Shown: piece after piece, positions 2,142 through 22,500 of the stretch
How the letters are laid out: every line of letters begins with the position of its first letter
Numbering within the stretch: position 1 is the first letter of the stretch
Virus record (IMG/VR): IMGVR_UViG_3300027754_000209
Location: 1 to 39,433 of that record
Source of the DNA: a virus
Strand: one strand, 5' to 3'
DNA length: 39,433 bases
Translations under genes and position numbers: made by a program
The notes under the pieces: model-generated
Told to the model about the DNA's origin: nothing
The model's input: the letters and a program-made list of their open reading frames with translations, nothing else
Databases searched by the model: none

Positions 2142-4490
2142 TTATCTTTGTCCGTATGTAAAATTATTTCTACTACTTCTTTCCGAAGAAGCCGCTATAC
2201 CTGCCATAACTTTTTGTCCATCTAAAAATGTGTTTGTTACTATCTTACCGCTACTCATATCCGCTCTTAATGCTTTCATTTCAGTTATTAAAGCATTTAC
2301 TGCTTTATCACTACCACCCATTCCCATAGATAATATAGATGGTTGTGTTGCATTTGATGCTTCTTTAAGTTTTGAAATTGCGTTTGGTGCAACTGCGATT
2401 TGGTCATTTGGAGATGGATTAAATATACCACCTTCCTCTGTTGATATTTGCACCCCTTTTCCTGATTTAATAGCCATATCCCCTACATCCGTACCACCTT
2501 TACTATAAGCTGCCATAATTGCCGCTGTTGCTCCCACTGCTAAAGCAATACCAATAACACCCATTTTACTATTTGTCCATGCACTCATCAAAGCCTCTTT
2601 CATCTTAAGTAATGCAGTCTTTTTACTTAAAATATACATTGTTGTCAATCCTGCTATAATTGCTGGAAATAATCCGGGTATATAATTTAATACTTTAAAT
2701 ATTCCTCCAAATACATTTCCTATTATTGTCACAACCGGTGCTAATGCTTCCATTAATGGTAATAATCCTTCACCAACAGATGCAACAATACCCTTAAATG
2801 AATTTTCCATTTGAGTTATCTTATCTGCAATTTCTTCCTCTTTTGCTAATTGTTGAGTTTTAGCTTTTAATTGGTCATCTGTCATATTTGTAATATCCAG
2901 ACCCTTATCCATAGCAGCTGACATTCTTTTTTGTTCAACTTCACTTAAATCTCCTAATTTTTCTTGAATTAATAATTGTTTAGTAATTTGTTCAACAGTC
3001 ATACCTGCTGCATCTGCTAATGCTTTTTTAGTAAACATATCCTGGTCAGAAAACTTACCACTTCTTTCAATTTGTCTTAGTATTTCTTTTTGTGCATCAA
3101 CATGCTTACCAGCATATGCCAATGCTCTAGCTTGAGATAAATTGAATTGTCCACCTACAAATGTTGCAGCTACTAATTCTTTCTCAATACCATTTTCAAA
3201 ATCAAGTAAATCTTCTGTTGTTTTTAATACGTCTTTTAATGTAGTACCCAATCTTCTAGCTTCAATAGCTTGTTTAGCAATAAGATTTACATCACCTTTA
3301 AAATATGTAAAAGTACTTTCAGCAGAGTCTGCTATATCTTTAAATACCTTAGATGGAGCAACGCCTGCTAAGTTAGCCATATCAGCTACTTGTTGTGATA
3401 CACTTTGTGCAGTAGCATCACTTAACCCAGCCATACTTTGAAAAATCATATTTACAGCTGCGGCATCTGTTTGAGCAATTCCAAAGTTTTTATTTAATAC
3501 AGCTATATTAGCCGCTACTGCTTTTGATACTGGAATTACATCTCCAAATTCACCTTTAAATGCAGCAATACTATCATATGCAACTTCCGCATCAACACCT
3601 AATTTAGCAAAATCAACCGAAATACTATGTGCATCTTTTTGAATTTGCTTTGTTTGAGAATTAGTTAAACCAGTTTCTTCTCTAAACTTTTTACCAGCTG
3701 CCTGTATTTCACTAAACGATACCAATGCTGCCGCAAATAATGCTCCCATTATTACAATAGGACCAAGTCCACTTGAAATACCTTTAGCTAATTTCTTAGC
3801 CATATCAACACCATCTTGTAAAAATGCTGGCAATCTTTGATATAAATCATCTGCTTCTTCTTGTATCTTTGTTAATCTTTCGTTTTGTGATATTAAATTT
3901 TCATTTAATTTATACAAATCAGTTAGTTTCTTTTTTTCTGCAGGTCCTAAATCAGCTATACTTTCTTCAAAATGCATCCTTCTACTAGCTTGTTCAGTAA
4001 CACCCAATAATTCATTTTTAGTTTGTGCAGCTGCTTCGGCTTGGTTAGTAATAGATGTATATAAATTTGAATACACATCTAATTTTCGTTGACTAACTTT
4101 TAATTCATCTTCAGATAAACCAGCTTGCTGGTCTTTCATATCTAATATATCTGCTGCAAGAGATGCAAATGCAGTACTACCTATTTTATTAGTAGATATT
4201 AATTTTCTAGCACCGGCATCTAATTTTGTAAAAGATGATTGTAGAGTATCCTGTAAATCACTATATTCTTCTGCTAATGTATTTTGTTCTTCTAATGGTT
4301 TTACTTGTTTTTGTAAAGTCTTTAATTTTTCTTTCTCCCTCTCAATACGTTTTTCAAGCTTTTTACGCTCTTCCGCACCAACAACCGCAGCCTTTTTATT
4401 TTGCTCCTCAATACGTTGATTAGTTTCTTCAATTTCTCTAAGAAGGTCTAACCTAAGTTCATCTGCACTATCTGATAGTTTTTCAGCCAT
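2142..4490 (-). CDS. Tail tape-measure protein
   Basis: This 782-residue protein is the length ruler and injection-channel component packed inside the tail tube, equivalent in position to T4 gp29 (590 residues). Residues 1-80 form a charged coiled coil rich in Glu and Lys. A hydrophobic segment lies at about 243-263, a long hydrophobic stretch at about 584-622, and another at 643-662. The middle is alpha-helical and Ala-rich. The C-terminus has a Gly-rich stretch with STEEGGIFNPSPNDQIAVAP, resembling the conserved loop near the end of many tape measures. Placement just before a tube-cap-like gene and after the gp26-like and small genes supports the call. Being longer than gp29, it predicts a tail somewhat longer than T4's. 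The ATG at 4490 is 13 bases after the previous gene's stop. Confidence 0.85.
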   Translation of the reverse strand: MAEKLSDSADELRLDLLREIEETNQRIEEQNKKAAVVGAEERKKLEKRIEREKEKLKTLQKQVKPLEEQNTLAEEYSDLQDTLQSSFTKLDAGARKLISTNKIGSTAFASLAADILDMKDQQAGLSEDELKVSQRKLDVYSNLYTSITNQAEAAAQTKNELLGVTEQASRRMHFEESIADLGPAEKKKLTDLYKLNENLISQNERLTKIQEEADDLYQRLPAFLQDGVDMAKKLAKGISSGLGPIVIMGALFAAALVSFSEIQAAGKKFREETGLTNSQTKQIQKDAHSISVDFAKLGVDAEVAYDSIAAFKGEFGDVIPVSKAVAANIAVLNKNFGIAQTDAAAVNMIFQSMAGLSDATAQSVSQQVADMANLAGVAPSKVFKDIADSAESTFTYFKGDVNLIAKQAIEARRLGTTLKDVLKTTEDLLDFENGIEKELVAATFVGGQFNLSQARALAYAGKHVDAQKEILRQIERSGKFSDQDMFTKKALADAAGMTVEQITKQLLIQEKLGDLSEVEQKRMSAAMDKGLDITNMTDDQLKAKTQQLAKEEEIADKITQMENSFKGIVASVGEGLLPLMEALAPVVTIIGNVFGGIFKVLNYIPGLFPAIIAGLTTMYILSKKTALLKMKEALMSAWTNSKMGVIGIALAVGATAAIMAAYSKGGTDVGDMAIKSGKGVQISTEEGGIFNPSPNDQIAVAPNAISKLKEASNATQPSILSMGMGGSDKAVNALITEMKALRADMSSGKIVTNTFLDGQKVMAGIAASSERSSRNNFTYGQR

Positions 4491-4503: not shown

Positions 4504-4746
4504 TTAATTGTAATCCATTGGTATCATTCCCCAACTCTGAAACATTTTAAACATTTCAGGTTTTTCATCTCTAAGTTTATCAATCTCTGGCTTATACTTT
4601 GAATTTAATTTATCCACATCAGCCTTCAATCTTTTTAAAGTAGGGTCTTTATCAATCAATTGTTGAAGTTTAGCAGGTGTAGATTTTTTGGTAAATAATC
4701 CAAAAAATTCCTTTAATTGATGTTTTTTTATTTTATATTTTGCCAT
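4504..4746 (-). CDS. Small lysine-rich helical protein between hub and tape-measure genes
   Basis: An 80-residue protein, highly charged (many Lys, Asp and Glu), predicted to be mostly helical, with a C-terminal segment MFKMFQSWGMIPMDYN containing its only tryptophan. I do not recognise a named family. It occupies the place that genes 27 and 28 hold in T4, but is far too short to be the gp27 hub. It may be a tail-assembly factor or a tape-measure chaperone. It is the first gene after a strong terminator (4793-4835) and has an ATATTTATA box 28 bases upstream, so it probably starts its own transcript with the tape measure and tube-cap genes. Confidence 0.75.
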   Translation of the reverse strand: MAKYKIKKHQLKEFFGLFTKKSTPAKLQQLIDKDPTLKRLKADVDKLNSKYKPEIDKLRDEKPEMFKMFQSWGMIPMDYN

Positions 4747-4792: not shown

Positions 4793-4835
4793 AAAAAAGT
4801 TAGGAATAAGAGTGTTATCTCTTAAACCTAACTTT
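4793..4835 (-). terminator. Rho-independent terminator with nested stem, after gp51-like frame
   Basis: On the minus strand, AAAGTTAGG pairs with CCTAACTTT (9 bp). Inside this, TAAGAG pairs with CTCTTA (6 bp) across a 6-base loop, and the hairpin ends in a run of six T. The stop codon of the gp51-like frame (4815-4817) lies within the hairpin loop. It separates the gp26/51 unit from the tape-measure unit. Confidence 0.8.
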
Positions 4836-4982
4836 AGATGCGTTTGCCGATTGAGTTGCTTTATTATTTGCTTCAGCTTCTTTTTTCTTAGATTCTACTA
4901 ATTTATTATAATAAAAAGTTCTAAGATACGTTGGCATTTTATACAATTCCATAATAGTGAATCCGTTACTATACTCCACCAT
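4815..4982 (-). CDS. gp51-like small baseplate hub assembly protein, or C-terminal frameshift extension of the gp26-like protein
   Basis: From the ATG at 4982 this frame encodes 55 residues: MVEYSNGFTIMELYKMPTYL, then RTFYYNKLVESKKKEAE and a basic tail. The NGFT...LYKMPTYLRTFYYNKL pattern resembles the short proteins at the T4 gene 51 position in T4-like phages, thought to act in baseplate hub assembly. The frame is open upstream of the ATG, through the gp26-like stop codon, until a TAG just before the T7 run at 5031-5037. No Shine-Dalgarno or A-rich leader stands at normal spacing before the ATG. It could therefore be translated as a fusion to the gp26-like protein by frameshifting (about 319 residues in total) rather than separately. 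Its stop lies inside the terminator hairpin. Confidence 0.7.
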   Translation of the reverse strand: MVEYSNGFTIMELYKMPTYLRTFYYNKLVESKKKEAEANNKATQSANASKVRFKR

Positions 4983-5010
4983 CTCAAAAATTTGAGTATG
5001 AAGTAGTGCA

Positions 5011-5040
5011 CTATGATTCTTCGCCAGGCCAAAAAAAGCC
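5011..5040 (-). other. Candidate programmed ribosomal frameshift window (T7 slippery run)
   Basis: The gp26-like frame reads GGC TTT TTT TGG CCT GGC GAA GAA TCA TAG. In the +1 (equivalently -2) frame a TAG ends just before this run, after which the frame is open through to the gp51-like protein. The overlap is only about nine codons and is centred on seven T (5031-5037). A +1 slip of the TTT in the P site would re-pair perfectly and continue GGC CTG GCG AAG. Confidence 0.5.
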
Positions 5041-5775
5041 TACACCCATTGGGATAGGTGCCTCCTCCACCTCACCATCTTCATGAGTATAACTAAATTT
5101 CATATTCATATCAGGAGATATTGATTTTACATAATCTCTAAATGCCTTACTATCTCTAGCTAAAAATGAATTATTTACAAATTTTGTAATAGCACCCATA
5201 TCAGAATTACCATCCACACTTTTAATCATATATCTCAAACGAGTAGTGATTTCAAATGAAGTATCCTTATTTAATTTTTCTAAAGCTGTTATATCTTTAT
5301 CAATTGCTAATTCATCACCATGTGTAAGTAATTTGAATGTTAATTTATTTTTTCCTGTTGGGGTTGTGAATTCAAATTCATTTTTATTATTAAATCCAGA
5401 CATATCCACATCTTTTGTTGCTACTTTTGATAAATCAACAGTAGTTTCTAATGATGTACTTGTTTTAGACGAATAAAATGATACTTTATAATCTGCACCA
5501 TATCCCAATAAACGAGTTGCTAATATAATAGCGTTTTTATCACCAACCAATATATCATTGATATTTACATCATCCACTATAATAGATTCAAATAATTTAT
5601 CTAATACAATACCTTTTTTAATAAGATTTGTAGAAGAAAGAATATCTTCCTCTTTTGCGGTCATATACTTAATTGTGATTCTACCAGAAGATAAAGGGTT
5701 TTCTTTTGGATATAATTTACCTTTAGATGGTAAATCCAACACTTCGGTTGGAAAATCAAATTGTTTTTCTGTCAT
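5011..5775 (-). CDS. gp26: Baseplate hub protein, T4 gp26-like (T4_baseplate family)
   Basis: This 254-residue protein opens with the family hallmark: VLDLPSKGKLYPKENPLSSG, then ITIKYMTAKEEDIL, a basic and acidic helix, and an ILVGDKNAIILATRLLGYGADY block. That order of LPSKG..Y, MTA.EE..L, GD.....A.R...YG..Y is typical of T4 gp26 and related baseplate or tail-assembly proteins (Pfam T4_baseplate). The CxxC often following YG..Y in this family is absent here; the sequence reads SFYSSKTSTS. The C-terminus GFFWPGEES ends in a TAG just after a T7 run, and may be bypassed by frameshifting into the gp51-like frame. The gene follows a terminator and has an ATATTTATA-type box 26 bases before its ATG. 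It probably acts in assembling the baseplate hub. Confidence 0.85.
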   Translation of the reverse strand: MTEKQFDFPTEVLDLPSKGKLYPKENPLSSGRITIKYMTAKEEDILSSTNLIKKGIVLDKLFESIIVDDVNINDILVGDKNAIILATRLLGYGADYKVSFYSSKTSTSLETTVDLSKVATKDVDMSGFNNKNEFEFTTPTGKNKLTFKLLTHGDELAIDKDITALEKLNKDTSFEITTRLRYMIKSVDGNSDMGAITKFVNNSFLARDSKAFRDYVKSISPDMNMKFSYTHEDGEVEEAPIPMGVGFFWPGEES

Positions 5776-5886: not shown

Positions 5887-6390
5887 TTAGTATTCAAGAA
5901 CAGCGTAATCGTAAGTTAATACTAAATCGATTGTTGCTGGTTCATTTGCGTTACTAAAATCTACTTCACCAAATGTTGCTTGAGATATAAATGCTCCATG
6001 CAAAGTCCATTTTTCAATTTTATCTCCAACCGGACCTAACATATAAAAGTTAATAGTCTTTTTGTAGAATTCTGCATATCCATCTCTACCAGTAATAGAT
6101 TCATGTGATAAACGAATCCACTCCATTACTAATTGTGCCGCTGAAGGAACAATTGGGTCATATAAAGTGATATTCAAATCTTGCCATGTACCTTTACCTT
6201 TAAGTTTTCTTTGTACGTTAATATGGTCGATAGTAACAGTTTCAAAGTTAATTTGAGGTCTATTTGCTGTTTTAACCATATACGCTGGGATTCCCACATC
6301 TGTCATTTCCATGTAGTAGCGGTTCTTCATTTTTGGTTCGAACTGCTGGAAAATCATCTTATCGTACGGTAGTATTAATTCGTCTGCCAT
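5887..6390 (-). CDS. gp19: Tail tube protein (T4 gp19-like)
   Basis: This 167-residue protein is close to T4 gp19 (163 residues). Recognisable features are an N-terminal FEPKMKNRYYMEM strand, the VKTANRPQINFETVTIDHIN block, GKGTWQDLNITLYDPI, and a C-terminal DFSNANEPATIDLVLTYDYA strand ending in Y. This order is typical of myovirus tail tube subunits, which stack as hexameric rings to form the inner DNA-conducting tube. It lies 53 bases downstream of the sheath gene, as gene 19 follows 18 in T4, and is followed by a strong terminator. The leader has AAAATAAAAGGA about 9 bases before the ATG, the only start I saw here with a Shine-Dalgarno-like AAGGA, which fits a highly expressed gene. Confidence 0.95.
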   Translation of the reverse strand: MADELILPYDKMIFQQFEPKMKNRYYMEMTDVGIPAYMVKTANRPQINFETVTIDHINVQRKLKGKGTWQDLNITLYDPIVPSAAQLVMEWIRLSHESITGRDGYAEFYKKTINFYMLGPVGDKIEKWTLHGAFISQATFGEVDFSNANEPATIDLVLTYDYAVLEY

Positions 6391-6443: not shown

Positions 6444-8789
6444 TTATCCAGCAAATGATGCTCCAGTTGGTAAGATGTTGAAATCTATTACAATAAATTC
6501 CGCTGTCTTAGCCGGTTGAAGAAAAATTGCTCCCGCTAATATGTTTCTATCAATCACATCCGGTGTGTTATTAGAATCATCCATTACAACATTGAATGCG
6601 TACAAACCTTGTCTTTGTTGGATACCCTCTAAGTAAGGAGTTACAGTGTTGATAAATCTATTTCTAGTCTCAGTAGTATTTTGTTCAAATACTAAATAAC
6701 GAGATGTTGAAGCGATAAATTTCTTAACAGTGATTAGTAATCTTCTTACATTGATTCTATCTAATGCTGATGCTCTATCTTGCAAAGTCTTTTGTCCAAA
6801 TGCTACGATACCTTGTCCAGGGAAAGTTGCAATTGGGTTTACTTTGTTCTCATATAAAGTATCTCTTTCAGAATGTGTTAATCTATTTAAAACACTAACT
6901 GCTCCAGTGATACCACCTCTATTCAAACCAGCCGGTGCGAACCACTCTGCTGATAATCTATCACTACTAGCGAATACCGCTGGTAATAATGTAGATGGAG
7001 GTACAGTTGTAAGTTTGTTTGTGTTAGCATCTATTGTTTTCATCCAAGGATAGTAACAAGCTACATAGTTTGAATCCACTGCATTTGCTTGCTCAGTTGC
7101 TGTTGTAATATCAGCATCGTAGTCAGTAAAGTCAGCAATATAGAAACAATCTTGTCTATCTTCACACATATCAATAATCTTTTGTGTGATTGCTGGATGT
7201 AATTGTCTATTGATACCCGGCGCAACTACTAAGTTAATATCGTATTCATCAGGATTTCCTAAAGCGTTAATTCCTTTTGTATATCCTACTGAACCACTTG
7301 CGGTTGAACGATTACAATCTAATCCCTGATTGTTTGCTGGTCCCCAATCAGAATCTCCAGCTTTAGCTACAGATACAGTTGGATTAACACCATCAAAACC
7401 ACCTTGGAATGCTACTAAGAATTGTCTTTTAACCATATCCACTGCAGCCGAACCAGTCATTTGGTATGTTAAACCCTGTGCACCATCAAAAGCAAATACT
7501 ACGTTTGCACCAGCGTTTGCATTATTAGGAATTGGTTTACAATATTGTTTATTATCCATTTCAATACCAGTACTTTCAAAATCAAAACCAGCATAATATA
7601 CAGGAGATGATGATGTGTTATTTGCCGAACCGGTTTGGAAAACTACTGGAGGTACATAAGTATCTTCAGTTGCGTTGTTAGTTGTAATTGGATTAATATA
7701 TGCAGCGTGTCCAAATGGTGCTGCTGAAATTGGGAATGAACCTTCAGATACTACTTCAACTCTAAAGTTGGTTGATTTATTTGAGTAATCACCATATTCG
7801 GTTATTTTACCATTATTATCAATTGTAAAATATCTATCACCAACTACTCTAGCTATATATCTTGGAGAAGATGAATCTAAGTTTACATTGTTGTAAGTTT
7901 CAACTACACTCTTTCTCTTATCAGTATCACCAAATGTTCTTAACGTTACAGTAAATGTTGCGTAATCAGTTGAACCATCTTCACCAGCTGCTTTAACATT
8001 TGATATACCAACTTTAAATTTAGTATTATAGGTGTTACCATGTCCATTACTATGGAAACGGAAAAGGTCATATCTTTCACCACTTACTATTTGTGATTTA
8101 ATCCAAGGAGTAGATGCTACTTGTGCATCGTATGCAAAGTTTTGTGTTGGTAAATTTAATTCACTTATTCTTACACCATTTAAACCATCATTGATTGAAC
8201 CAGTATATAATAATGCTGCGTTTTCAAAGAAAGTGTAAGCGTATGCTGCTTTAGCTCCAAATGGAGATTCACCAAATACATCTGCTAAATCATTTGTAGC
8301 GGATGCTAAAATTGATGCAGATACACTAGCTACAGCTGAACCAGAACTAACTTTTCCAGATATTACAAATGAACCAGATATGGTTGCACTAGCTGTAATA
8401 TTTGTATCAATTGCTGTAAATCCAACTCCTTCATCACCAAATTTAGTTGAGTGTAAAGTACCAATTATTTTTGTACCAAGAGAACTTGATACTAAAATTC
8501 CCAAAGGTGCTACTTGTTGATATCCACCGATACCAGCTACTCTTACTACTGTTGCTGCTCCAGCTTCTCTTAAATAGTTTTGTACTGCATATTCAGTATA
8601 ATATGTTCCATCAGGTGTGCCGAAGATGTTCTCAAATTCGGATTGAGTTCTCACAATAGTTGGAACGAATGCGGGTCCTTGCTTAAAAGGTCCTATAAAT
8701 GCTGCCCCAATTTCTCCTATTCCTTGTGCTAAGAATGATAGGTCATTTTCTCTTGTGAATACGCCAGGTGATACGATTCTTTCTGCCAT
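6444..8789 (-). CDS. gp18: Tail sheath protein (T4 gp18-like)
   Basis: This 781-residue protein begins MAERIVSPGVFTREND, the characteristic N-terminus of contractile sheath subunits. The SEFENIFGTP...YYTEYAVQNYLREAG..VVRVAG block follows at about 47-88. The conserved C-terminal domain is clear: DCFYIADFTDYDADI, PWMKTID, PPSTLLPAVFASSDR, WFAPAGLNRG, LYENKVNPIATFPGQGIVAFGQ, and a final segment with DSNNTPDVIDRNILAGAIFLQPAKTAEFI. T4 gp18 has 659 residues, so this subunit carries about 120 extra residues. A Ser/Ala-rich stretch near 130-170 and a variable middle (about 110-470) probably form surface domains on the tail exterior. The sheath contracts to drive the tube through the host envelope. 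A terminator precedes the gene, and a candidate promoter box lies 59 bases before the ATG. Confidence 0.96.
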   Translation of the reverse strand: MAERIVSPGVFTRENDLSFLAQGIGEIGAAFIGPFKQGPAFVPTIVRTQSEFENIFGTPDGTYYTEYAVQNYLREAGAATVVRVAGIGGYQQVAPLGILVSSSLGTKIIGTLHSTKFGDEGVGFTAIDTNITASATISGSFVISGKVSSGSAVASVSASILASATNDLADVFGESPFGAKAAYAYTFFENAALLYTGSINDGLNGVRISELNLPTQNFAYDAQVASTPWIKSQIVSGERYDLFRFHSNGHGNTYNTKFKVGISNVKAAGEDGSTDYATFTVTLRTFGDTDKRKSVVETYNNVNLDSSSPRYIARVVGDRYFTIDNNGKITEYGDYSNKSTNFRVEVVSEGSFPISAAPFGHAAYINPITTNNATEDTYVPPVVFQTGSANNTSSSPVYYAGFDFESTGIEMDNKQYCKPIPNNANAGANVVFAFDGAQGLTYQMTGSAAVDMVKRQFLVAFQGGFDGVNPTVSVAKAGDSDWGPANNQGLDCNRSTASGSVGYTKGINALGNPDEYDINLVVAPGINRQLHPAITQKIIDMCEDRQDCFYIADFTDYDADITTATEQANAVDSNYVACYYPWMKTIDANTNKLTTVPPSTLLPAVFASSDRLSAEWFAPAGLNRGGITGAVSVLNRLTHSERDTLYENKVNPIATFPGQGIVAFGQKTLQDRASALDRINVRRLLITVKKFIASTSRYLVFEQNTTETRNRFINTVTPYLEGIQQRQGLYAFNVVMDDSNNTPDVIDRNILAGAIFLQPAKTAEFIVIDFNILPTGASFAG

Positions 8790-10262: not shown

Positions 10263-10601
10263 TTAACTATTTTCTAAATTTTCAATTCTCTCTAATAAAT
10301 ATTCGTTTTGTGCTTTTAAGAAATTAACTTCATTTCTTAATTCTTTAACCGATTGTACAAGTACAGGTATTAAAGATTCCATAGAAAGCGTTAATAATCC
10401 ACTCTTTTCATCAGTCCTTACTAATGTAGGGAATACTTCTTGAACGTTTTGAGCTGTAAAACCCATTTTGATATTAGTATCTTCTACAAATTCTGGGTCC
10501 AATGAATGCATCTTATATGTGTAGTAGATAGGTGTTAAATTATCCACTTTATCAAGTACATCCGTAATTACTCCATGTATATTTTTTACTGATGCATCGG
10601 A
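10263..10601 (-). other. Peptidase S74 (endosialidase-type) autocleaved C-terminal chaperone domain
   Basis: Codons 2285-2396 of the giant fibre. The motif S-D-A-S-V-K places Ser and Lys five apart, as in the known endosialidase chaperone. It is followed by the conserved P-I-Y-Y-T-Y-K strand, GFTAQNVQEVFP, a LLTLSMESLIPVLVQSVKEL helix and a heptad-like terminal helix. Predicted cleavage is just before Ser2285. The call rests on motif recognition. Confidence 0.85.
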
Positions 10602-13600
10602 GTATCCAGACCAACCATAGTAATATTGATATAGTACTACTCCACCATATGAACCCCCACCACACAACATATACATAGCGTTGTATCCATCAGTTTGTCC
10701 TATCCAGTTATACCCACCAGAAGAACGATAATAAATACCAAATCCACTTCCAGCATCAATATTACCATCTGAATTGTAGTTCATATTAATGAAGTTACGG
10801 AATCTTACAGAACCCTGAATATTAAATCTAATAAATCCATAAGTAGTTGAATCGACCGATGCACAGTTATTAGGTCTACTATAATAATAACTCCACCCAT
10901 TACCATTTTGTACATAGATACCACCATTACCACTCTCAAACATCAAGTTGTTGTAATAACCAGATGGGTCATTTACAAGCATACCACCATAACCACCTCT
11001 ATAATATCCAAATGTTTGATAACAACCATACGATGAATCAAAGTTAGTTCTAATATGAGAACCATATGATTGGTTGTATAAACCCCCACCACCTTGGTTT
11101 CTAAACCATCCATTTGCATAAACCTCTTGGAATGTAGGCGAAGCATCACTTCTTACACTTTGGTTTACGTTATTACTCATCCAACCCAAATATGCCAACC
11201 AAAGGTTATTATCATTTATATACGCACCTTCACTTCCGTTAGGATTTCTGAATATAAAGTATCCCCATTGTTGTCTTTGGAAATATAAGTGAGAACTATG
11301 CCATTGTATTTTGTAATATTCCCCAGTCCATCCACCAGGATCAGAATACAACATATAACCCGGTCTGATATATAAGTTATTTGTATATACTGCATTTAAA
11401 CTTGAAGTACCATTAGGGTCACAATAATATCCCGTATCATTTGAATCATAGAATATAGGAGAACGTGCTGAACCAACCATATAGGTATATCCTCTATATA
11501 CGTTAAATGCTCCACCATCCCAATACCAAATCCAACTATAACGGTTATCATGTACACCTACGTTATCACCGGTTGTACTCATAAAACAATGCGTACTAGC
11601 TATACCCCAGCCATACCAACCATTTCTACCACCACCATAAGTTGCTACGTGTCCATATGAGTTTCCAGCACCTTCAGGTGAAAAGAAACCTCTACCATAC
11701 GGCTCCCAATAGAAACCATTTGAAGTATTTTGTCTATACCATGCGTTTGAATAAATATCACCAGCAGTTAATGAACGAGTTCCACCACCAGTACCAATTC
11801 TAACACCAGGATATCCTCTATAATAAACTAACTCCAATGGGTCAGAATCGTATCCAGAGTTTACAGTATCTCTATATGAGTTTGTACCAATTGCACCATA
11901 GTTACCATCACCTCTATAATACACATTGTAAATATACATTGTGTTAAGATGAGATGTACCAGCAAAATCTCCATAATAGTTTGTATCATTTGAATCATAA
12001 AAATAAGGTGCTCTTAAGGAGTTTGCACCTTCCAAGTAATTGTAAACATATGTATAGTTTATACCCCAATATTGGTTTGTATAACGAGTACCAGATGTAT
12101 TGGTATTATAAAGAACCATACCACCATCTTGTTCAAAACGAATATATCCTTGTCCGTGGTTTGTATTTAATCTACCCCAATAATATGTGTTTGTATATTG
12201 GTTTGATGAGTTATCCACATTATATCCAATACCAGCTCCATTCCAAGTATTACCCGGTTCAGAACACCACATTTGCATATGAACATCACCTTGTCCAGAT
12301 CCATTATTAGCTGCTGCTAATGTTACACGCAATCTACTATTTCCGTGGTCACCAGTAACATGCAATCTAGTTGATGGTAATGCGTATCCAACTCCCAATT
12401 GCCACAATCTACTATCACCATTGGGGTCTACTCTATATGCCGAATCATCCCAATCATACCAAATATTAAAATATCCACTAGCACCCCTTAAAGTATTGTA
12501 TGGTCCCATGTATAATTGAACATCCGTTGCGCCTGCATATCCTTGAGTTGCTTGCGTACTATTGACTTGGTCTAATCTCCAACCATGCGTACTATATGTA
12601 CCAAATCCACCTCTACCAGCACCAGGCCAGTTTTGAATATAAGATGCTGAGTTATAATACGAATCATTTACACTATATGATTGAGCCCAAACGTTTTGAA
12701 GAACCGATAATCCTGCAGGGTCTGAATAATAATTTGTGTCATCTCTATCATAGAATCTATAAGAATAGACGTTTCCGCCCGTATATAAGTTATTAGTTAT
12801 TCTTACGTTTGAATCACCTGCACCAACACTCATTAGTTCCGTAGTGCTAACACCCGGAGAATCATTCATAAAACGAGTACCACCATATGATGGATTGCCT
12901 CCAATTTCAACACCAGTATGCCATCCTAAAGTCAAACGAGTATGTGTAGAGTATCCATTATTATATGGAGATTTTACATACATTAAATAGTAAGGTACGC
13001 CATCATTTCTTTGCCCAGATGTAATACCGGTGGATGAACCAACCGCAGATGGGTCAGATGTTGAAGTTGATAAATTTATATGTCTAGTGTTACCACTATT
13101 AATTCCTTTTTGGAATAAAAACGTTCCCCCTTGGTCATAAAAAGTATCACCATATATTGAAGGTGCTCTAAATGATGTTGCTGCGTAAGCATTACCATCA
13201 CCATATGCAGAGAATACTACACTTGACCATGCTCTATCCACTACCTCAAATCTAGTGTTACCACTACCACCTAATTGTAATGTTGAAATACCTGTTGCTC
13301 TATCAGCTGCTCTACCTATCCAAGCTTCACCACTATTATTTTGAGATTGTGCAAAAGAACCCATTCTAACCCAACCAGTTGGAGTAATATTACCAACAAA
13401 TTGGAATGCTGATTGAGCATCTCTAAACACCGTAGTAGATGTTGTCTTTATAATATTAGAATAGTAAGATGAGTTTGATAAGCCTCTATAAGCGTAAGTA
13501 CTACCAGTTGATTTTACACCATCTGCTCTTACTAAAGTTACCATAGCATCACCATCAGTATATCCAGCATATCCGGCGTTGTTATAACCACCAATATGGA

Positions 13601-16600
13601 ATACAGGGTGAGCAGTGTTACCACTATCTCTATTCAGTACTAATAAACCATCATTTACATTATAGTTATAAATTGCAGTTGCCCAAGCTTCACCAGACAT
13701 AACTTCATTTGTACTTCTAAAGTACACACCAGCTGCATCATTACTATTTGTTGCTTGTATAGTTGAAAATGAAACATTATCAGATGTTCTAACATACTGA
13801 TTCATAGTGTATGCGTAAACCTGGTCAATACTATTTAATAATTGTTGCCAAGCATTCCAAGTTGTTGCAGTACTTCCAAGTCTAGTCCATAATCTACCAG
13901 CAGCAGTATATGCAATTTGAATTGGCATTCCCCCACTTAAATCAGTACTACTACCATAACTTCTCCAATACATTTGTCCGTTATATGAACCACCATCACT
14001 CAATCCATTTGTACCATTTCCTTTAAAATCAAAACGAATTATGTTATTAAATGATTGTGGTAAATCATTTGTACTACGTGTATCTTGCGAATATATATTG
14101 TATGTATATGTTGATGAACCAGCTGAACTTACACTAAAGTTTGATGGATTCCAAGGATACATATTCACACCATCATTCGTTCCCCAAACATAAGTTGGCT
14201 GACCTGATTGTCCTGAATAAATAAAATCTATGTTTGTTCCGTCTGAACGTCTTGGATATGTTCTAATTCCCCATTGTCCACTATTATAAACTACTTGAGT
14301 TCCAGTATTGTATCCATTACCACCCACATACATTTGTCCAGCTGCATATAAATCTCCACCAGTACTTATTGATGATTTTACCGATGCACTTCCATTAGTA
14401 TAAAAATATAAAGCGTATCCAGTTTCAGCCCATAAAGCTGGGTCATAGTTTGCATTACCTTCCCATAATCCTCTACGAGTAAATCCACCAACGTTTGCAC
14501 TTCCGGCTGCATTTCTTATTCTAAATCCACTACTTGTTTGTGCATCAAAGTATGCTGTTCCTGTTACACCAGCAAATGTTACAGCATCCGTAGTTCTTAC
14601 GTTTTGATTCATTGCGTATAACTCATTGGCACCTTGTCCAGTATCAACAGTAGAGAATGTTACTGCATCTGATGTACGAATATTTTGGTTCATTAAATAA
14701 ACCTCTGTTGCTCCTTGTCCAGTATCTATTGTACCACTTAATGTTATATTACCGGCACCTACTGAAAGGTTACCACCAGTTACACTTACACCATTTGTTG
14801 CTGTAATTGTTGCATGAGTAACGTTATCGGTTGTACGAATATTTTGGTTCATTAAATAAACCTCTGTTGCTCCTTGTCCAGTATCTATTGTACCTGTTAT
14901 TACAACGTTACCACTACCACCAATATTACCTGCTACATAAAAATCAGTATCAGAATACCATCTTAATCCACTTTCATTCCAATAAAATTGTCTTGTTGCT
15001 TGATTTCCTCTCTTAACTTCTATACCAGCATTTTCAGTTGGTGTAGTTGATGCGCCAATATCCGCATTTAATGTAATAATATTATCACCTATGTTAAGAG
15101 TTGTTGTATTAATATATGTTGTTGTACCACTCACAGTAAGGTCACCAGTAATTGTAGCGTTACCGGTTACCGTAAGTAATGTACCATCAAAAGTTAAATT
15201 TGATTCAACAGTTCCATTTGGTGCACTTCCGTTTAAAGTAATTACACCATTATCAGTTGTACCTGTTAATGCTAATAATCCAGATGTACCAGATGTACCA
15301 CGTGTTCCTGATGACCCAGAAGTTCCTGATGACCCAGAAGTTCCCGATGTGCCAGAACTTCCCGATGTGCCAGCCGTTCCACCAGTACCACTACTTCCCG
15401 ATGTGCCACTCGTACCACTAGAGCCGCTTGTACCACTACTTCCAGAAGTTCCTGATGTACCTCCACTACCAGCTGTACCAGCCGTTCCTGCCGTGCCAGA
15501 TGTACCAGCCGTGCCAGATGTACCAGCTGAACCCGTTGAGCCGGATGTTCCACCACTACCAGCTGAACCAGATGTTGCTGATGTTCCTGATGTTGCTGAA
15601 GTTCCCGATGTACCAGATGTACCAGCTGAGCCAGACGTTCCTGTTGTACCACTACTTCCGCTTGTGCCTGCTGAACCTGATGTGCCGGATGTACCTGCTG
15701 AACCCGATGTGCCCGTTGTACCACCACTTCCAGAAGTTCCTGTTGTACCGCTTGACCCAGCTGTTCCAGCTGTGCCAGATGTACCTCTTGTTCCTGATGT
15801 ACCTGCACTGCCGCTTGTACCATCAATACCAGATGTACCTGCGCTTCCAGATGTTCCAGATGTGCCGCCACTTCCAGATGTTCCGGTTGAACCTCCACTT
15901 CCAGAAGTTCCTGTTGAGCCGCTTGTTCCAGAACTTCCCGATGTACCTCCAGACCCAGATGTGCCTGCCGTTCCACCTGTCCCAGCTGTTGCTGACGTAC
16001 CTGCCGTTCCTCCACTTCCAGAAGTTCCTGTTGTGCCGCTTGTTCCAGAAGTTCCTGATGTTCCAGCACTACCACCCGTTCCACCAGCTCCACTTAATCC
16101 TGATGTTCCTCCACTTCCAGTTGACCCAGATGTTCCAGAACTTCCTGATGTACCGCTACTACCAGACGTACCGGCTGAGCCACCAGCACCAGTTATACCA
16201 CCACTACCATTTGTTCCTGATGTACCACCAGATCCCGATGTACCATCTCTACCAGATGTGCCACTACTTCCTGATGTACCACTACTACCCGTCAATCCCG
16301 ATGAACCCGTTGTTCCCGATGAGCCAGTTGTTCCACTACTTCCTCCACTACCAGATGTTCCCGATGAGCCGCTTGTACCAGAACTTCCTGATGTGCCTCC
16401 CGTACCACTACTACCATCAGTGCCACTTGTACCACTACTGCCAGAAGTTCCCGATGAACCAGATGTTCCGGAGGTGCCTCCACTTCCCGATGTTCCGTTT
16501 GAACCCGTTGTGCCAGCAGTTCCCGATGTGCCACCACTTCCAGATGACCCAGACGTTCCTGTTGTGCCAGATGTACCAGAACTTCCCGATGTACCTCCCG

Positions 16601-17453
16601 TACCACTTGAGCCACCACTACCAGATGAACCAGACGTTCCCGATGTGCCACCACTACCAGAAGTTCCTGATGACCCGGTTGTACCACTACTACCCGTTGT
16701 GCCAGATGTACCAGCCGAGCCAGTTGTACCAGAAGTTCCTGATGTTCCAGATGATGCTGCTGCATATTTTCTACCAACTATACCAGTTACAGTATTATAT
16801 ACTAATACTTCATCCGTTGATGAATCATTTGGAAAATTTCCAACTCTTAAACTACCAGAAAGTAAAACACTTCCTGTTATAGCTACACTACCAGTAAATT
16901 CTTGCTTATCAGTTAATTGGTCACCAAATTTAGATGAACCAGTTGTATAAATTATTGAAGATGAAATATATTGAGTAAATAATTCCGTTGTTGTAATTTT
17001 ACCACCAACAGTTAAATCAGTTGTTATGATAGCTGAACCTGTTACAGTTAAATTGCCAGCAATAGCTGTTTTAACATTAATTTCCAATCCTTTGTTTGGA
17101 GATATTACACCTTGAGCTGAACCTGATTTAATTCTATCCACATCACCAATTGCTGATGCTGGAATATTTGTTATACCACTACCATCACCAACTAAATTAG
17201 CATATACCGTAGATGCTGATACGAATGAGCTTACATTTAATGAACCTGTTATTTGCTCATTTGCTTTTATTTGTAAAGGTGAACCATTTGATGTACCAAT
17301 TACATTAGATTGTACAGCCGATGCTGTAAAATTTCCTACAACACTTACGGATTCGGATGAAGCATTTAAAATAGAAGAACCACTTACAAAAAGTGATACA
17401 CTATTAATACTATTTTGATTTATACCATTAGGGTTTTTACCTTCAAACTTCAT
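10263..17453 (-). CDS. Giant tail fibre with Gly-X-Y tract and C-terminal peptidase S74 chaperone
   Basis: This is a 2396-residue fibre. Residues 1-235 are a phage-fibre N-terminal region with an IPASAIGD...RIKSGSAQGVISPNKGL unit and a YISSSIIYTTGSSKFGDQ...DKQEFTGSV module, both also found in the 3365-residue fibre. Residues 236-725 are a Gly-Ser-Thr tract in Gly-X-Y triplets. Next comes the shared linker beginning GTTDNGVITLNG, then repeated GTIDTGQGATEVYLMNQNIR units. Residues 1560-2025 hold at least four copies of a FYDSNDTNYYxDPxGTSxLN repeat, and the Tyr/Gly/Asn-rich distal shaft follows. The C-terminus (2285-2396) is a peptidase S74 intramolecular chaperone: S2285 in YSDASVK with K2290 five residues later fits the Ser-Lys arrangement of endosialidase-type self-cleavage, followed by MGFTAQNVQEVFP and a terminal coiled coil. 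The trimeric fibre is predicted to fold and then shed about 112 residues. It probably binds the host surface. Confidence 0.93.
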   Translation of the reverse strand: MKFEGKNPNGINQNSINSVSLFVSGSSILNASSESVSVVGNFTASAVQSNVIGTSNGSPLQIKANEQITGSLNVSSFVSASTVYANLVGDGSGITNIPASAIGDVDRIKSGSAQGVISPNKGLEINVKTAIAGNLTVTGSAIITTDLTVGGKITTTELFTQYISSSIIYTTGSSKFGDQLTDKQEFTGSVAITGSVLLSGSLRVGNFPNDSSTDEVLVYNTVTGIVGRKYAAASSGTSGTSGTTGSAGTSGTTGSSGTTGSSGTSGSGGTSGTSGSSGSGGSSGTGGTSGSSGTSGTTGTSGSSGSGGTSGTAGTTGSNGTSGSGGTSGTSGSSGTSGSSGTSGTDGSSGTGGTSGSSGTSGSSGTSGSGGSSGTTGSSGTTGSSGLTGSSGTSGSSGTSGRDGTSGSGGTSGTNGSGGITGAGGSAGTSGSSGTSGSSGTSGSTGSGGTSGLSGAGGTGGSAGTSGTSGTSGTTGTSGSGGTAGTSATAGTGGTAGTSGSGGTSGSSGTSGSTGTSGSGGSTGTSGSGGTSGTSGSAGTSGIDGTSGSAGTSGTRGTSGTAGTAGSSGTTGTSGSGGTTGTSGSAGTSGTSGSAGTSGSSGTTGTSGSAGTSGTSGTSATSGTSATSGSAGSGGTSGSTGSAGTSGTAGTSGTAGTAGTAGSGGTSGTSGSSGTSGSSGTSGTSGSSGTGGTAGTSGSSGTSGTSGSSGTSGSSGTRGTSGTSGLLALTGTTDNGVITLNGSAPNGTVESNLTFDGTLLTVTGNATITGDLTVSGTTTYINTTTLNIGDNIITLNADIGASTTPTENAGIEVKRGNQATRQFYWNESGLRWYSDTDFYVAGNIGGSGNVVITGTIDTGQGATEVYLMNQNIRTTDNVTHATITATNGVSVTGGNLSVGAGNITLSGTIDTGQGATEVYLMNQNIRTSDAVTFSTVDTGQGANELYAMNQNVRTTDAVTFAGVTGTAYFDAQTSSGFRIRNAAGSANVGGFTRRGLWEGNANYDPALWAETGYALYFYTNGSASVKSSISTGGDLYAAGQMYVGGNGYNTGTQVVYNSGQWGIRTYPRRSDGTNIDFIYSGQSGQPTYVWGTNDGVNMYPWNPSNFSVSSAGSSTYTYNIYSQDTRSTNDLPQSFNNIIRFDFKGNGTNGLSDGGSYNGQMYWRSYGSSTDLSGGMPIQIAYTAAGRLWTRLGSTATTWNAWQQLLNSIDQVYAYTMNQYVRTSDNVSFSTIQATNSNDAAGVYFRSTNEVMSGEAWATAIYNYNVNDGLLVLNRDSGNTAHPVFHIGGYNNAGYAGYTDGDAMVTLVRADGVKSTGSTYAYRGLSNSSYYSNIIKTTSTTVFRDAQSAFQFVGNITPTGWVRMGSFAQSQNNSGEAWIGRAADRATGISTLQLGGSGNTRFEVVDRAWSSVVFSAYGDGNAYAATSFRAPSIYGDTFYDQGGTFLFQKGINSGNTRHINLSTSTSDPSAVGSSTGITSGQRNDGVPYYLMYVKSPYNNGYSTHTRLTLGWHTGVEIGGNPSYGGTRFMNDSPGVSTTELMSVGAGDSNVRITNNLYTGGNVYSYRFYDRDDTNYYSDPAGLSVLQNVWAQSYSVNDSYYNSASYIQNWPGAGRGGFGTYSTHGWRLDQVNSTQATQGYAGATDVQLYMGPYNTLRGASGYFNIWYDWDDSAYRVDPNGDSRLWQLGVGYALPSTRLHVTGDHGNSRLRVTLAAANNGSGQGDVHMQMWCSEPGNTWNGAGIGYNVDNSSNQYTNTYYWGRLNTNHGQGYIRFEQDGGMVLYNTNTSGTRYTNQYWGINYTYVYNYLEGANSLRAPYFYDSNDTNYYGDFAGTSHLNTMYIYNVYYRGDGNYGAIGTNSYRDTVNSGYDSDPLELVYYRGYPGVRIGTGGGTRSLTAGDIYSNAWYRQNTSNGFYWEPYGRGFFSPEGAGNSYGHVATYGGGRNGWYGWGIASTHCFMSTTGDNVGVHDNRYSWIWYWDGGAFNVYRGYTYMVGSARSPIFYDSNDTGYYCDPNGTSSLNAVYTNNLYIRPGYMLYSDPGGWTGEYYKIQWHSSHLYFQRQQWGYFIFRNPNGSEGAYINDNNLWLAYLGWMSNNVNQSVRSDASPTFQEVYANGWFRNQGGGGLYNQSYGSHIRTNFDSSYGCYQTFGYYRGGYGGMLVNDPSGYYNNLMFESGNGGIYVQNGNGWSYYYSRPNNCASVDSTTYGFIRFNIQGSVRFRNFINMNYNSDGNIDAGSGFGIYYRSSGGYNWIGQTDGYNAMYMLCGGGSYGGVVLYQYYYGWSGYSDASVKNIHGVITDVLDKVDNLTPIYYTYKMHSLDPEFVEDTNIKMGFTAQNVQEVFPTLVRTDEKSGLLTLSMESLIPVLVQSVKELRNEVNFLKAQNEYLLERIENLENS
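15279..16748 (-). repeat. Gly-X-Y (collagen-like) tract in the 2396-aa fibre
   Basis: About 490 codons (residues 236-725) that read almost only Gly, Ser, Thr and Ala in GSS, GTS, GTT, GSG or GTA triplets, with rare Asp, Asn, Arg, Leu or Ile. At DNA level it is a degenerate tandem repeat of 9-base units. It is visibly richer in G+C than flanking sequence and creates long stop-free antisense frames that are not genes. Confidence 0.95.
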
Positions 17454-19550: not shown

Positions 19551-22500
19551 TTAACTTAAATTTTTACCAGTTACAAATCCGTAATATGTTGTGCCACCAT
19601 CATAAGTATAGAATACTAAAACATCAATACCAGATGATGTTAATATTGGTGCACTTCCACCAACCCATTTAATAGTAGGCCAAGTAATTGAATATGCTCC
19701 AGCGTTTATAGCAACTAACGTAAATCCAAACGCCTTAGTAACAGGTGCTTGTGCAAATGTTAATGTTGCTGCTCCATTAAATTGTCTTCTAAAGTTATTT
19801 GCTGTTGATAAATCTAATGTTGCACTTCCTCCTGTTCCTAAATCAGAATAGGTTTCTCTATATGTTGTAGAACTTACATATCCACTAGCTCCAAAATTTC
19901 CAGTTAAAGTTATATCACCTGTTTGTGTAATATTACCACTCAATCCTAATGTAGTTCCATCGAAAGTTAAATTATTTTCAACAGTTGCATTTGGTGGAGT
20001 TCCATTTAATGTGATTACACCATTATCAGTTGTACCACTTAATAATAATGTACCAGATGTACCATTTGAACCAAGTCCAGATGTACCAGATGTTAAACCC
20101 GGAACAGAAGTTCCAGAAGTTCCCGATGTAATACCAGGCGTAGATGTACCCGAAGACCCACCACTACCAGACGTTCCACTACTTCCAAAGAATGTACCAT
20201 TTACACCAGACGAACCCGATGTACCATTTGTTGCAGATGAGCCGGATGAGCCAGCTGTACCCGTTGTACCATTCGTTCCCGATGTGCCTCCCGTACCTGT
20301 ACTACCAGAAGTTCCACTACTTCCAAAGAATGTACCATTTAAACCAGATGACCCAGATGAACCAGCTGATCCTGATGTACCACTTACTCCCGATGAGCCA
20401 GTTGAACCATCCGTACCTGATGTACCTCCAGAGCCCGTGCTACCATCCGTACCCGATGTACCATTTGTTCCAAAAAATGTTCCGTTTATACCAGACGAAC
20501 CAGTTGAACCAGATGAGCCAGCGGAGCCTGATGTACCATTTGAGCCTGATGTACCATCGTGTCCATCAGTACCAGACGAACCATTAGAGCCCGATGTACC
20601 AGATGAACCTTCAGCTGATGTACCAGATGACCCAGTAGTTCCTGATGTGCCATTTGAACCCGTAGTTCCTGATGTTCCTGTTGAGCCACTACTTCCGCTA
20701 CTTCCTGCTGTACCAGACGAACCAAAAAATGTACCATTTAATCCAGATGACCCAGATGTTCCGGTTGTACCACTACTTCCTGCTGTTCCTGTTGTGCCAT
20801 TTGAGCCACTACTTCCAGATGAACCAGATGAGCCAAAGAATGTACCATCTAATCCAGAAGTTCCCGTTGACCCAGAAGAACCACTACTGCCGCTTGTACC
20901 AGTCGAACCACTACTGCCGCTTGAACCAGACGAACCACTACTTCCAGATGAACCAAAAAAAGTTCCATCTAAACCAGATGAACCAGAAGAGCCATCAATA
21001 CCACTACTACCTGATGTACCCGTTGAGCCCGATGTACCAGATGTGCCAGACGAACCTTGTGTTCCAGACGAACCCGATGTACCTGTTGAGCCGGTTGTAC
21101 CACTTGAGCCAGTTGAACCAGATGTTCCAGATGAGCCAGCAGTACCCGTTGAACCATCCGTGCCGCTTGAACCAGATGTTCCTGAAGTACCACTACTACC
21201 CGATGTGCCCGTTGAACCAGTTGAACCACTACTTCCAGAAGAGCCTGCTGAACCAGTTGAACCATCAGTTCCACTACTTCCACTTGTGCCATCAATACCA
21301 GATGAGCCGGATGTACCAGCCGAGCCAGACGAACCATTCGAACCCGTCGAACCAGATGACCCAGATGAACCAGCCGTTCCTGTTGAACCATCAGTTCCAC
21401 TACTGCCATTTGAACCACTACTTCCACTGCTTCCACTGCTTCCACTACTTCCCGATGAACCCGTTGTTCCAGCAGAACCATTTGAGCCGCTTGTACCAGA
21501 TGACCCAGCAGAACCGCTACTTCCATCAGTACCAGATGACCCAGCACTTCCCGATGAGCCTGTTGTGCCAGAAGTTCCAGCAGAGCCCGTTGAACCAGAA
21601 GTTCCCGATGAGCCGCTTGTACCAGATGACCCAGCAGAACCACTACTTCCATCAGAACCAGATGTACCACTACTTCCCGATGTACCCGTTGTGCCAGATG
21701 TACCAGCCGAGCCAGATGTACCAGCCGAGCCAGATGTTCCTGTTGAACCACTACTTCCACTACTTCCAGATGAGCCACTACTTCCAGATGAACCATCACT
21801 ACCGCTAGTTCCAGATGACCCGCTTGAACCAGAAGTTCCTGATGAACCGCTTGAACCACTGCTTCCAGATGTGCCATCCGTACCACTTGTTCCCGAAGAG
21901 CCACTTGTACCAGATGTACCACTACTACCGGTTGAGCCACTACTTCCACTACTTCCAGACGAGCCACTACTTCCACTAGTTCCAGACGAACCAGATGAAC
22001 CGGATGAGCCACTTGAACCTGTTGTACCACTACTACCAGTCGTACCACTAGTGCCAGATGTTCCATCCGAACCTGATGTTCCCGATGTACCATTTTTTCC
22101 CGATGTGCCAGACGTACCATCCGTACCTCTAGCTCCCGTAGAACCAGACGTTCCTGATGAGCCAGACGTTCCCGATGAACCAGCTTGTCCACTACTACCA
22201 GAACTTCCCGATGTTCCATCACGTCCACTACTACCAGCTGTTCCCGATGTGCCAGACGTTCCCGAAGAGCCAGCCGTACCATTTGAACCCGTTGTACCTG
22301 AAGAACCAGATGTGCCAGATGTTCCCGAAGAGCCAGCCGTACCATTTGAACCCGTTGTACCAGATGACCCGGTTGTACCATTTGAACCCGTTGAACCAGA
22401 TGTACCTGCGGTTCCTGATGAACCTGATGTGCCAGCAGTTCCACTACTACCTGATGTACCTTCTGAGCCCGTAGTTCCAGCTGAACCATTAGTTCCACTA

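Follow-up and report, generated by a model that had tools for sequence, protein, structure and literature searches.

The question raised by this locus is how a reading frame without a start codon of its own is expressed behind a gene for a putative tail assembly chaperone. The window, as the whole analyzed stretch is called here (39,433 nucleotides, positions 1 to 39,433 of the IMG/VR virus record IMGVR_UViG_3300027754_000209), carries on its minus strand a gp26-like open reading frame (ORF) and a second ORF that overlaps its 3' end in the +1 (equivalently -2) frame. A run of seven T (T7) in the overlap was proposed in the initial annotation to be a +1/-2 programmed frameshift site that joins the two frames. 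The comparative analysis supports the +1 shift and speaks against the -2 shift, and the locus is very probably a tail chaperone gene that belongs to the T4 gp26 family (PF12322/phrog_150) and would produce its long isoform by programmed +1 frameshifting. This reading follows from the conserved slip site and its phase, the selection acting on codons ahead of the first ATG, the missing start codons in relatives and the adjacency of the tape measure gene.

Layout of the chaperone locus

The features of the locus and its surroundings are as follows.

5011..5775, minus strand: gp26-like zero-frame ORF, short tail assembly chaperone (TAC-N), 254 aa; phrog_150, PF12322
5031..5037, minus strand: T7 slippery run, zero-frame TTT TTT T(GG), +1 re-pairing of TTT to TTT
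4815..5030, minus strand: +1-frame extension, 71 aa, C-terminal part of the predicted long chaperone; gp51-like via intermediates only
4815..5775, minus strand: predicted +1 fusion, 319 aa, ...GVGFF-GLAKNHS..., long chaperone (TAC-NC), an inferred product
5040..5042, minus strand: TAG stop of the +1 frame, ahead of the slip site
4980..4982, minus strand: first ATG of the +1 frame, judged not to be a gene start; absent or much later in many relatives
5887..6390, minus strand: tail tube protein; phrog_4542, E 4.4e-30
6444..8789, minus strand: tail sheath protein; phrog_23, E 3e-73
4504..4746, minus strand: 80-aa ORF separating the chaperone locus from the tape measure gene; best E 0.036, no convincing family
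2142..4490, minus strand: tape measure protein, 782 aa; BLASTP match to the annotated tape measure protein of Flavobacterium phage immuto, E 2e-23

The gp26-like frame ends with GTA GGC TTT TTT TGG CCT GGC GAA GAA TCA TAG, the stop codon (5013..5011) lying eight codons from the first T of the run (5037..5031). The second ORF runs to a stop at 4817..4815, its frame is closed by a TAG (5042..5040) two bases ahead of the T run, and no ATG occurs in it until 4982. These features had all been described before and are borne out by the sequence, and a single four-base step at the T run, read in silico, gives a fused reading frame of 319 residues, as had been estimated. The inner ATG had been said to lack a leader like those of other genes; judged by eye, its leader is indeed less A-rich than the mostly A-rich leaders elsewhere in the window. 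In-frame TTTTTTT occurs in none of the 12,622 codons of the listed genes of the window outside the site and in none of 41,689 gp26 codons of relatives with the site excluded, and therefore the T7 at the site is not due to chance. The genes are arranged in the order of sheath, tube, chaperone and tape measure, with one 80-aa ORF before the tape measure gene; chaperones of the lambda G/GT type likewise usually lie between the tail tube and tape measure genes. Elsewhere in the window, the minus strand carries three very large ORFs of 2396, 3365 and 2816 aa (10263-17453, 19551-29648 and 30660-39110), two of which face long antisense ORFs (619 and 1021 aa); such giant ORFs may reflect an unusual or repetitive composition.

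Both sequence profile and fold place the gp26-like protein in the T4 gp26 family. The window ORF matches phrog_150 with an E-value of 2.1e-7 and PF12322 with an E-value of 3.8e-5 (23.9 bits, just under the cut-off of 24.5), and gp26 of a relative (L083) reaches 4e-15 in the family profile search. An AlphaFold2 model of the window protein (pLDDT 89) has 56 matches in BFVD at E <=0.001, some unnamed and several annotated as T4-type baseplate hub proteins or subunits. A PDB fold search with the model gave no match at E 0.001; BLASTP of the window protein against T4 gp26, hhalign of window-type gp26 against a T4-type gp51 alignment, a Pfam search with immuto gp26 and a viral scan with Bakedbeans gp26 gave no significant match either. 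Pfam, PHROG and PDB fold searches with the gp26 family revealed no link to lambda G.

The gp51-like label that had been given to the extension stands only through intermediates. The window extension matches no Pfam or PHROG family directly, tblastn with its 71 aa alone finds no match in the phage collection, and phrog_634 is matched by 1 of 29 clade extensions, weakly (best E 0.23). In profile comparisons, the E-values of which refer to single comparisons, the window-type extension aligns with the extension of cyanophages (probability 88.5, E 2.7e-6), and the latter in turn aligns with the C-terminal end of T4-type gp51, immediately behind the PF12322 domain (probability 95.9, E 5.5e-9); consistently, 18 of 19 cyanophage extensions match phrog_634. 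Because the direct comparison of the window-type extension with the T4-type gp51 profile is not significant (probability 1), the label is transitive, with the cyanophage extension as the bridge.

Conservation of the slip site and selection on the extension

Each IMG/VR scan was taken as its best 80 loci, and hence the junction sets are samples. In the best 80 loci of the first scan, TTT TTT TGG (TTTTTTTGG) is present in the gp26 frame in all 80, and the distance from the first T to the gp26 stop is 24 nt in 73 loci, 18 nt in four and 15 nt in three. The first and three further scans together with named phages provided 263 usable sequences out of 267, with 176 distinct junctions among the matches listed; no junction was obtained from L087, L189, L265 and L266, and L084, L085 and L086 were read one by one. 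Exclusion of three distant named phages left 173 distinct clade junctions for analysis. The clade includes immuto, which infects Flavobacterium, the Microcystis phage Mel-JY01 and the huge phage LR756508, and it is therefore not bound to one host phylum.

The slip site lies in the overlap and is conserved across the clade, and the alignment of related junctions that had been suggested as a check gives the same phase throughout. Among the matches listed, an exact T7 is present at the site in 129 of the 173 distinct junctions, and 160 of them have, behind the slippery site, a complete +1 extension that reaches 60 aa or more. The extension was looked for in the +1 frame behind the site, with all frames of each junction listed separately, and it lies in the +1 frame in all 160 complete junctions counted. 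Of the other 13 junctions, nine are cut by contig ends, two have shorter extensions and two carry a separate ATG-started ORF. The forms of the site in the 173 junctions are TTTTTTTGG (114), TTTCTTTGG (28), TTTTTTTAC (15), TTCTTTTGG (9), TTTCTATGG (3) and four others found once each; a looser T-rich pattern, which had been widened to admit variants, fits all 173. In the 57 window-type junctions, all nine bases of TTTTTTTGG are invariant, even though C would be synonymous at the wobble position of both TTT codons. Phe-Phe pairs elsewhere in the gp26 genes of the clade are encoded by TTCTTC (14), TTTTTT (3) and TTCTTT (2). In two loci (L023 and L061), the slip site is intact but the +1 extension stops early, after 40 and 52 aa, which may be an error or a real truncation.

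The codons between the gp26 stop and the usual ATG allow translation of the extension ahead of that ATG to be judged. The pN/pS comparisons are restricted to the 57 distinct window-type junctions with a site-to-stop distance of 24 nt; all pairs were compared and the values are hence not independent. For this stretch (56 rows used), pN/pS is 0.34 when read in +1, as compared with 2.20 for frame 0 and 1.24 for -1; as references, the last 40 codons of gp26 give 0.32 and the stretch after the ATG 0.23. The short overlap from the site to the gp26 stop gives 0.57 in the +1 frame, 1.36 in frame 0 and 1.06 in the -1 frame. By these substitution patterns, the extension upstream of the ATG is under protein-level selection, and in the +1 frame only. 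The position of the first ATG itself varies: in the 160 extensions it falls at codon index 8 or below in 10, at index 9 to 20 in 72 and later in 66, and 12 have none. Thus 78 of the 160 extensions are without an ATG in their first 20 codons, and one (L176) is without any ATG, GTG or TTG.

Direction of the shift and other routes to the second product

Variant sites in the clade bear on the direction of the slip. TTT CTT TGG is found 28 times, TTC TTT TGG nine times and TTT CTA TGG three times. By inspection of the pairing, the P-site tRNA can re-pair after a +1 step at the variants (TTT to TTC, CTT to TTT, TTT to TTT), and TTT CTT TGG, TTT CTA TGG and TTC TTT TGG allow no re-pairing after a -2 step. 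The +1 shift is therefore the explanation common to all of these sites, and a -2 shift is unsupported. The codon in the A site is TGG (TAC in some relatives) and not a stop codon as in prfB-type sites; TGG is not notably rare either (98 of 12,656 window codons). No clear stimulatory RNA structure is found at 56 window-type junctions (mean z -0.67 downstream and -1.23 upstream). GGNGTN just upstream of the site is, by eye, conserved in window-type junctions and could act like a Shine-Dalgarno sequence, but Gly-Val codons would equally give GGNGTN.

A shift of -2 has been proposed for phage Mu, and the T7 pairing alone would permit such a shift in the window, adding one extra Phe; we consider it very improbable here, because the clade also contains TTT CTT T, TTT CTA T and TTC TTT T, which forbid the re-pairing. 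Transcriptional slippage on the T run, which would yield mRNAs in the other frame, seems about as improbable: the T7 run suits it, but in relatives whose site is TTTCTTT or TTTCTAT or has a run of no more than four T, the two frames stand in the same relation although no long homopolymer is present. That a sequencing or assembly error has split one gene is hardly credible, nothing having been found in its favor and the same phase recurring in 160 complete and mutually distinct junctions as well as in the isolates immuto and Mel-JY01.

The downstream protein could instead be the product of a separate gene, started at the ATG at 4982 by re-initiation or by a ribosome-binding site of its own. The window shares this ATG with many near relatives, the downstream gene is annotated from an inner start in the records of immuto and S-RIM8, and in two of the 173 loci the extension is a separate ORF whose ATG lies 5 nt (L257) or 8 nt (L262) after the gp26 stop. 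The initial annotation had regarded separately started downstream genes in relatives as evidence against frameshifting; such genes are confined to these two loci, and 160 of the 173 junctions keep the +1 extension. Two separate genes are nevertheless a very unlikely arrangement for the window, given the pN/pS of 0.34 in the +1 frame ahead of the ATG, the lack of an early or of any ATG in many extensions and the conservation of the slip site. In L257, which has the separate ORF, the run has been lost and the site is TTC TTG TAT, where re-pairing is no longer possible. L262 has TTC CTT TGG and keeps CTT T, so that the site is not always lost where it is no longer needed. Re-initiation may still serve as a second route in the 82 of 160 relatives with an ATG in the first 21 codons of the extension.

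With +1 frameshifting as the preferred reading, the following mechanism is proposed. Most ribosomes would read the zero frame to the stop at 5013..5011 and produce the short gp26-like chaperone. In some of them, the peptidyl-tRNA-Phe on UUU would slip by +1 on the U7 run while UGG waits in the A site, and the slipped ribosomes would continue in the +1 frame to make the 319-aa protein with its C-terminal extension. Site, frame, conservation, selection, start codons and gene order are read from the sequence, and from them we infer that slippage occurs, its efficiency, the tRNA step and the roles of the two chaperones. By analogy with lambda gpG/gpGT, many short copies would coat the tape measure protein, and a few long copies would recruit the tail tube protein, thereby linking the tape measure to the tube.

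The same gene family in other phages and known chaperone systems

The gp26 genes of cyanophages and their kin end with T TTT TTC, one codon and the stop, and the ORF annotated as gp51 continues in the -1 frame. Among the matches listed, the T TTT TTC heptamer is present in 81 of 82 distinct cyanophage-type junctions (76 from IMG/VR and six named), and a -1 ORF extends at least 100 nt past the gp26 stop in 80 of the 82. These 82 junctions come from 87 loci, four copies and RB43 having been dropped, and the loci with the heptamer/-1 pattern are L267, L269, L272 and L274-L353. Cygsa01 has TAATG and no heptamer, its -1 ORF being counted among the 80, and the junction of L295 is cut by a contig end. 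Elsewhere in cyanophage-type gp26 genes, TTT TTC encodes 1 of 100 Phe-Phe pairs. RNA structure at the cyanophage-type sites is weak (mean z -1.44 for 85 junctions). In the cyanophage-type records inspected, gp51 is either annotated from an inner start or missing. In S-SCSM1 (L268), the heptamer is present as TCT TTT TTC GCT TAG and the extension lies in the +1 frame, which may be an error or a real change.

Ten further named phages add other arrangements. MED4-213, S-SSM5 and SRB7757 have T TTT TTC and Melnitz-1 has T TTT TTT; Moby and the Schizotequatroviruses 1.081.O and R11Z have the heptamer together with an overlapping ATG; VAP7 and D531 have TAATG only. In Kuttervirus PM10 (L359), the tenth, an unannotated extension-like -1 ORF follows gp26, with no ATG near its start and no classical heptamer. 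Apart from these ten, GXN1 has a +1 ORF behind gp26, and LR756511 (L085) has a TAATG start. The jumbo phage RAS14 (L086) has a gp26-like gene with AGT TTT TTT ATC and a -1 ORF, the fusion being unannotated.

In T4 (L087), gp26 and gp51 both match the whole length of PF12322 (E 8.8e-64 and 3.9e-52) and hence look like paralogs. T4 gp51 consists of a gp26-like domain and an extra C-terminal piece that aligns with the -1 extension of cyanophages. Because genes 26 and 51 lie on opposite strands, a frameshift cannot join them. T4 would hold the same short/long pair through duplication of such a chaperone gene. In a quick tree of 125 gp26-type rows (113 of 258 distinct gp26 rows after removal of near copies, plus 12 named), the mode of expression changes 6 times, as compared with 49.5 times with shuffled labels; Moby, 1.081.O and R11Z, with their additional overlapping ATG, were labeled -1. 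The long branches of this tree (T4, RAS14, RB43 and others) are unsure in their placement.

On balance, these observations favor a single T4-like tail chaperone family in which the direction of recoding has switched: the immuto-type clade, to which the window belongs, would shift by +1 on TTT T, CTT T or TTT C, and cyanophages and KVP40-like phages by -1 on T TTT TTC, with a coupled TAATG start elsewhere and duplication into genes 26 and 51 in T4. The +1 clade would then be undescribed, and the truncated "gp51" of cyanophages would be the frameshift half of a gp26-51 protein. This suggests that one family may meet the need for two products by a +1 shift, a -1 shift, a coupled start or duplication. 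Vladimirov et al. reportedly identified the tail chaperone genes of T4-like phages in 2022. The T4 26/51 pair is probably what was meant there, and the identification of gp26/gp51 would then already be in print; the significance of the +1 clade would be lower if that paper already covers it. In a 2025 paper, poly-T -1 signals in T4-like tail chaperone genes are called known, and the -1 cases of the gp26 family are thus perhaps in print as well. The open-access full-text literature, as far as it was accessible, yielded no report of +1 frameshifting in the gp26 chaperone family, and the forward-slip (+1) version of the T4-type chaperone pair may be new. Sullivan et al. (2010) described cyanophage and marine vibriophage gp51 as lacking the first ~200 aa, and the word frameshift is absent from the main text of that paper (PMC3037559).

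The practical consequences concern annotation and the study of slippage. The records of immuto and of the cyanophage-type phages inspected, which list the 3' part from an inner start or omit it, can be corrected. The sites UUU U, CUU U and UUU C are natural +1 sites without a stop codon or an obvious stimulator and offer test cases for +1 slippage.

According to the review by Atkins et al. (2016), a short tail chaperone coats the tape measure protein and a scarce long form links the tube protein, and the G/GT scheme is widely conserved in long-tailed phages, T4 excepted (PMC5009743). The +1 version would bring a forward-shifting form of tail chaperone recoding into the T4 gene family, the exception named there. 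The window locus resembles lambda G/GT in that a short and a long product come from one gene by a shift near its 3' end and target the tape measure protein. However, lambda G/GT shifts by -1 and the clade of the window by +1. The cyanophage and Schizotequatrovirus gp26/gp51 loci share the family, a T-rich 3' slip site and a profile-related extension with the window, but their site is the classical T TTT TTC with a -1 shift.

Three further systems are likened by description. The tail chaperone pair 17.5/17.5* of SPP1 has a putative -1 shift at UUUUUUC (PMC6316719), a heptamer that is also present in cyanophage gp26; SPP1 is a siphovirus, and its shift of -1 differs from that of the window. The tail chaperone of the haloarchaeal myovirus HSTV-2, for which the frameshift is very likely +1 (Atkins et al. 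2016, PMC5009743), is like the window in direction and differs in belonging to an archaeal virus. In Bacillus phage 0305phi8-36, gp143 and gp144 form a two-gene chaperone whose shared domain recapitulates G/GT (PMC2147016), with two genes and no frameshift, as seems to be the case in T4. T4 obtains its pair from the two genes 26 and 51, whereas the phage of the window is predicted to obtain its pair from one gene via a +1 shift.
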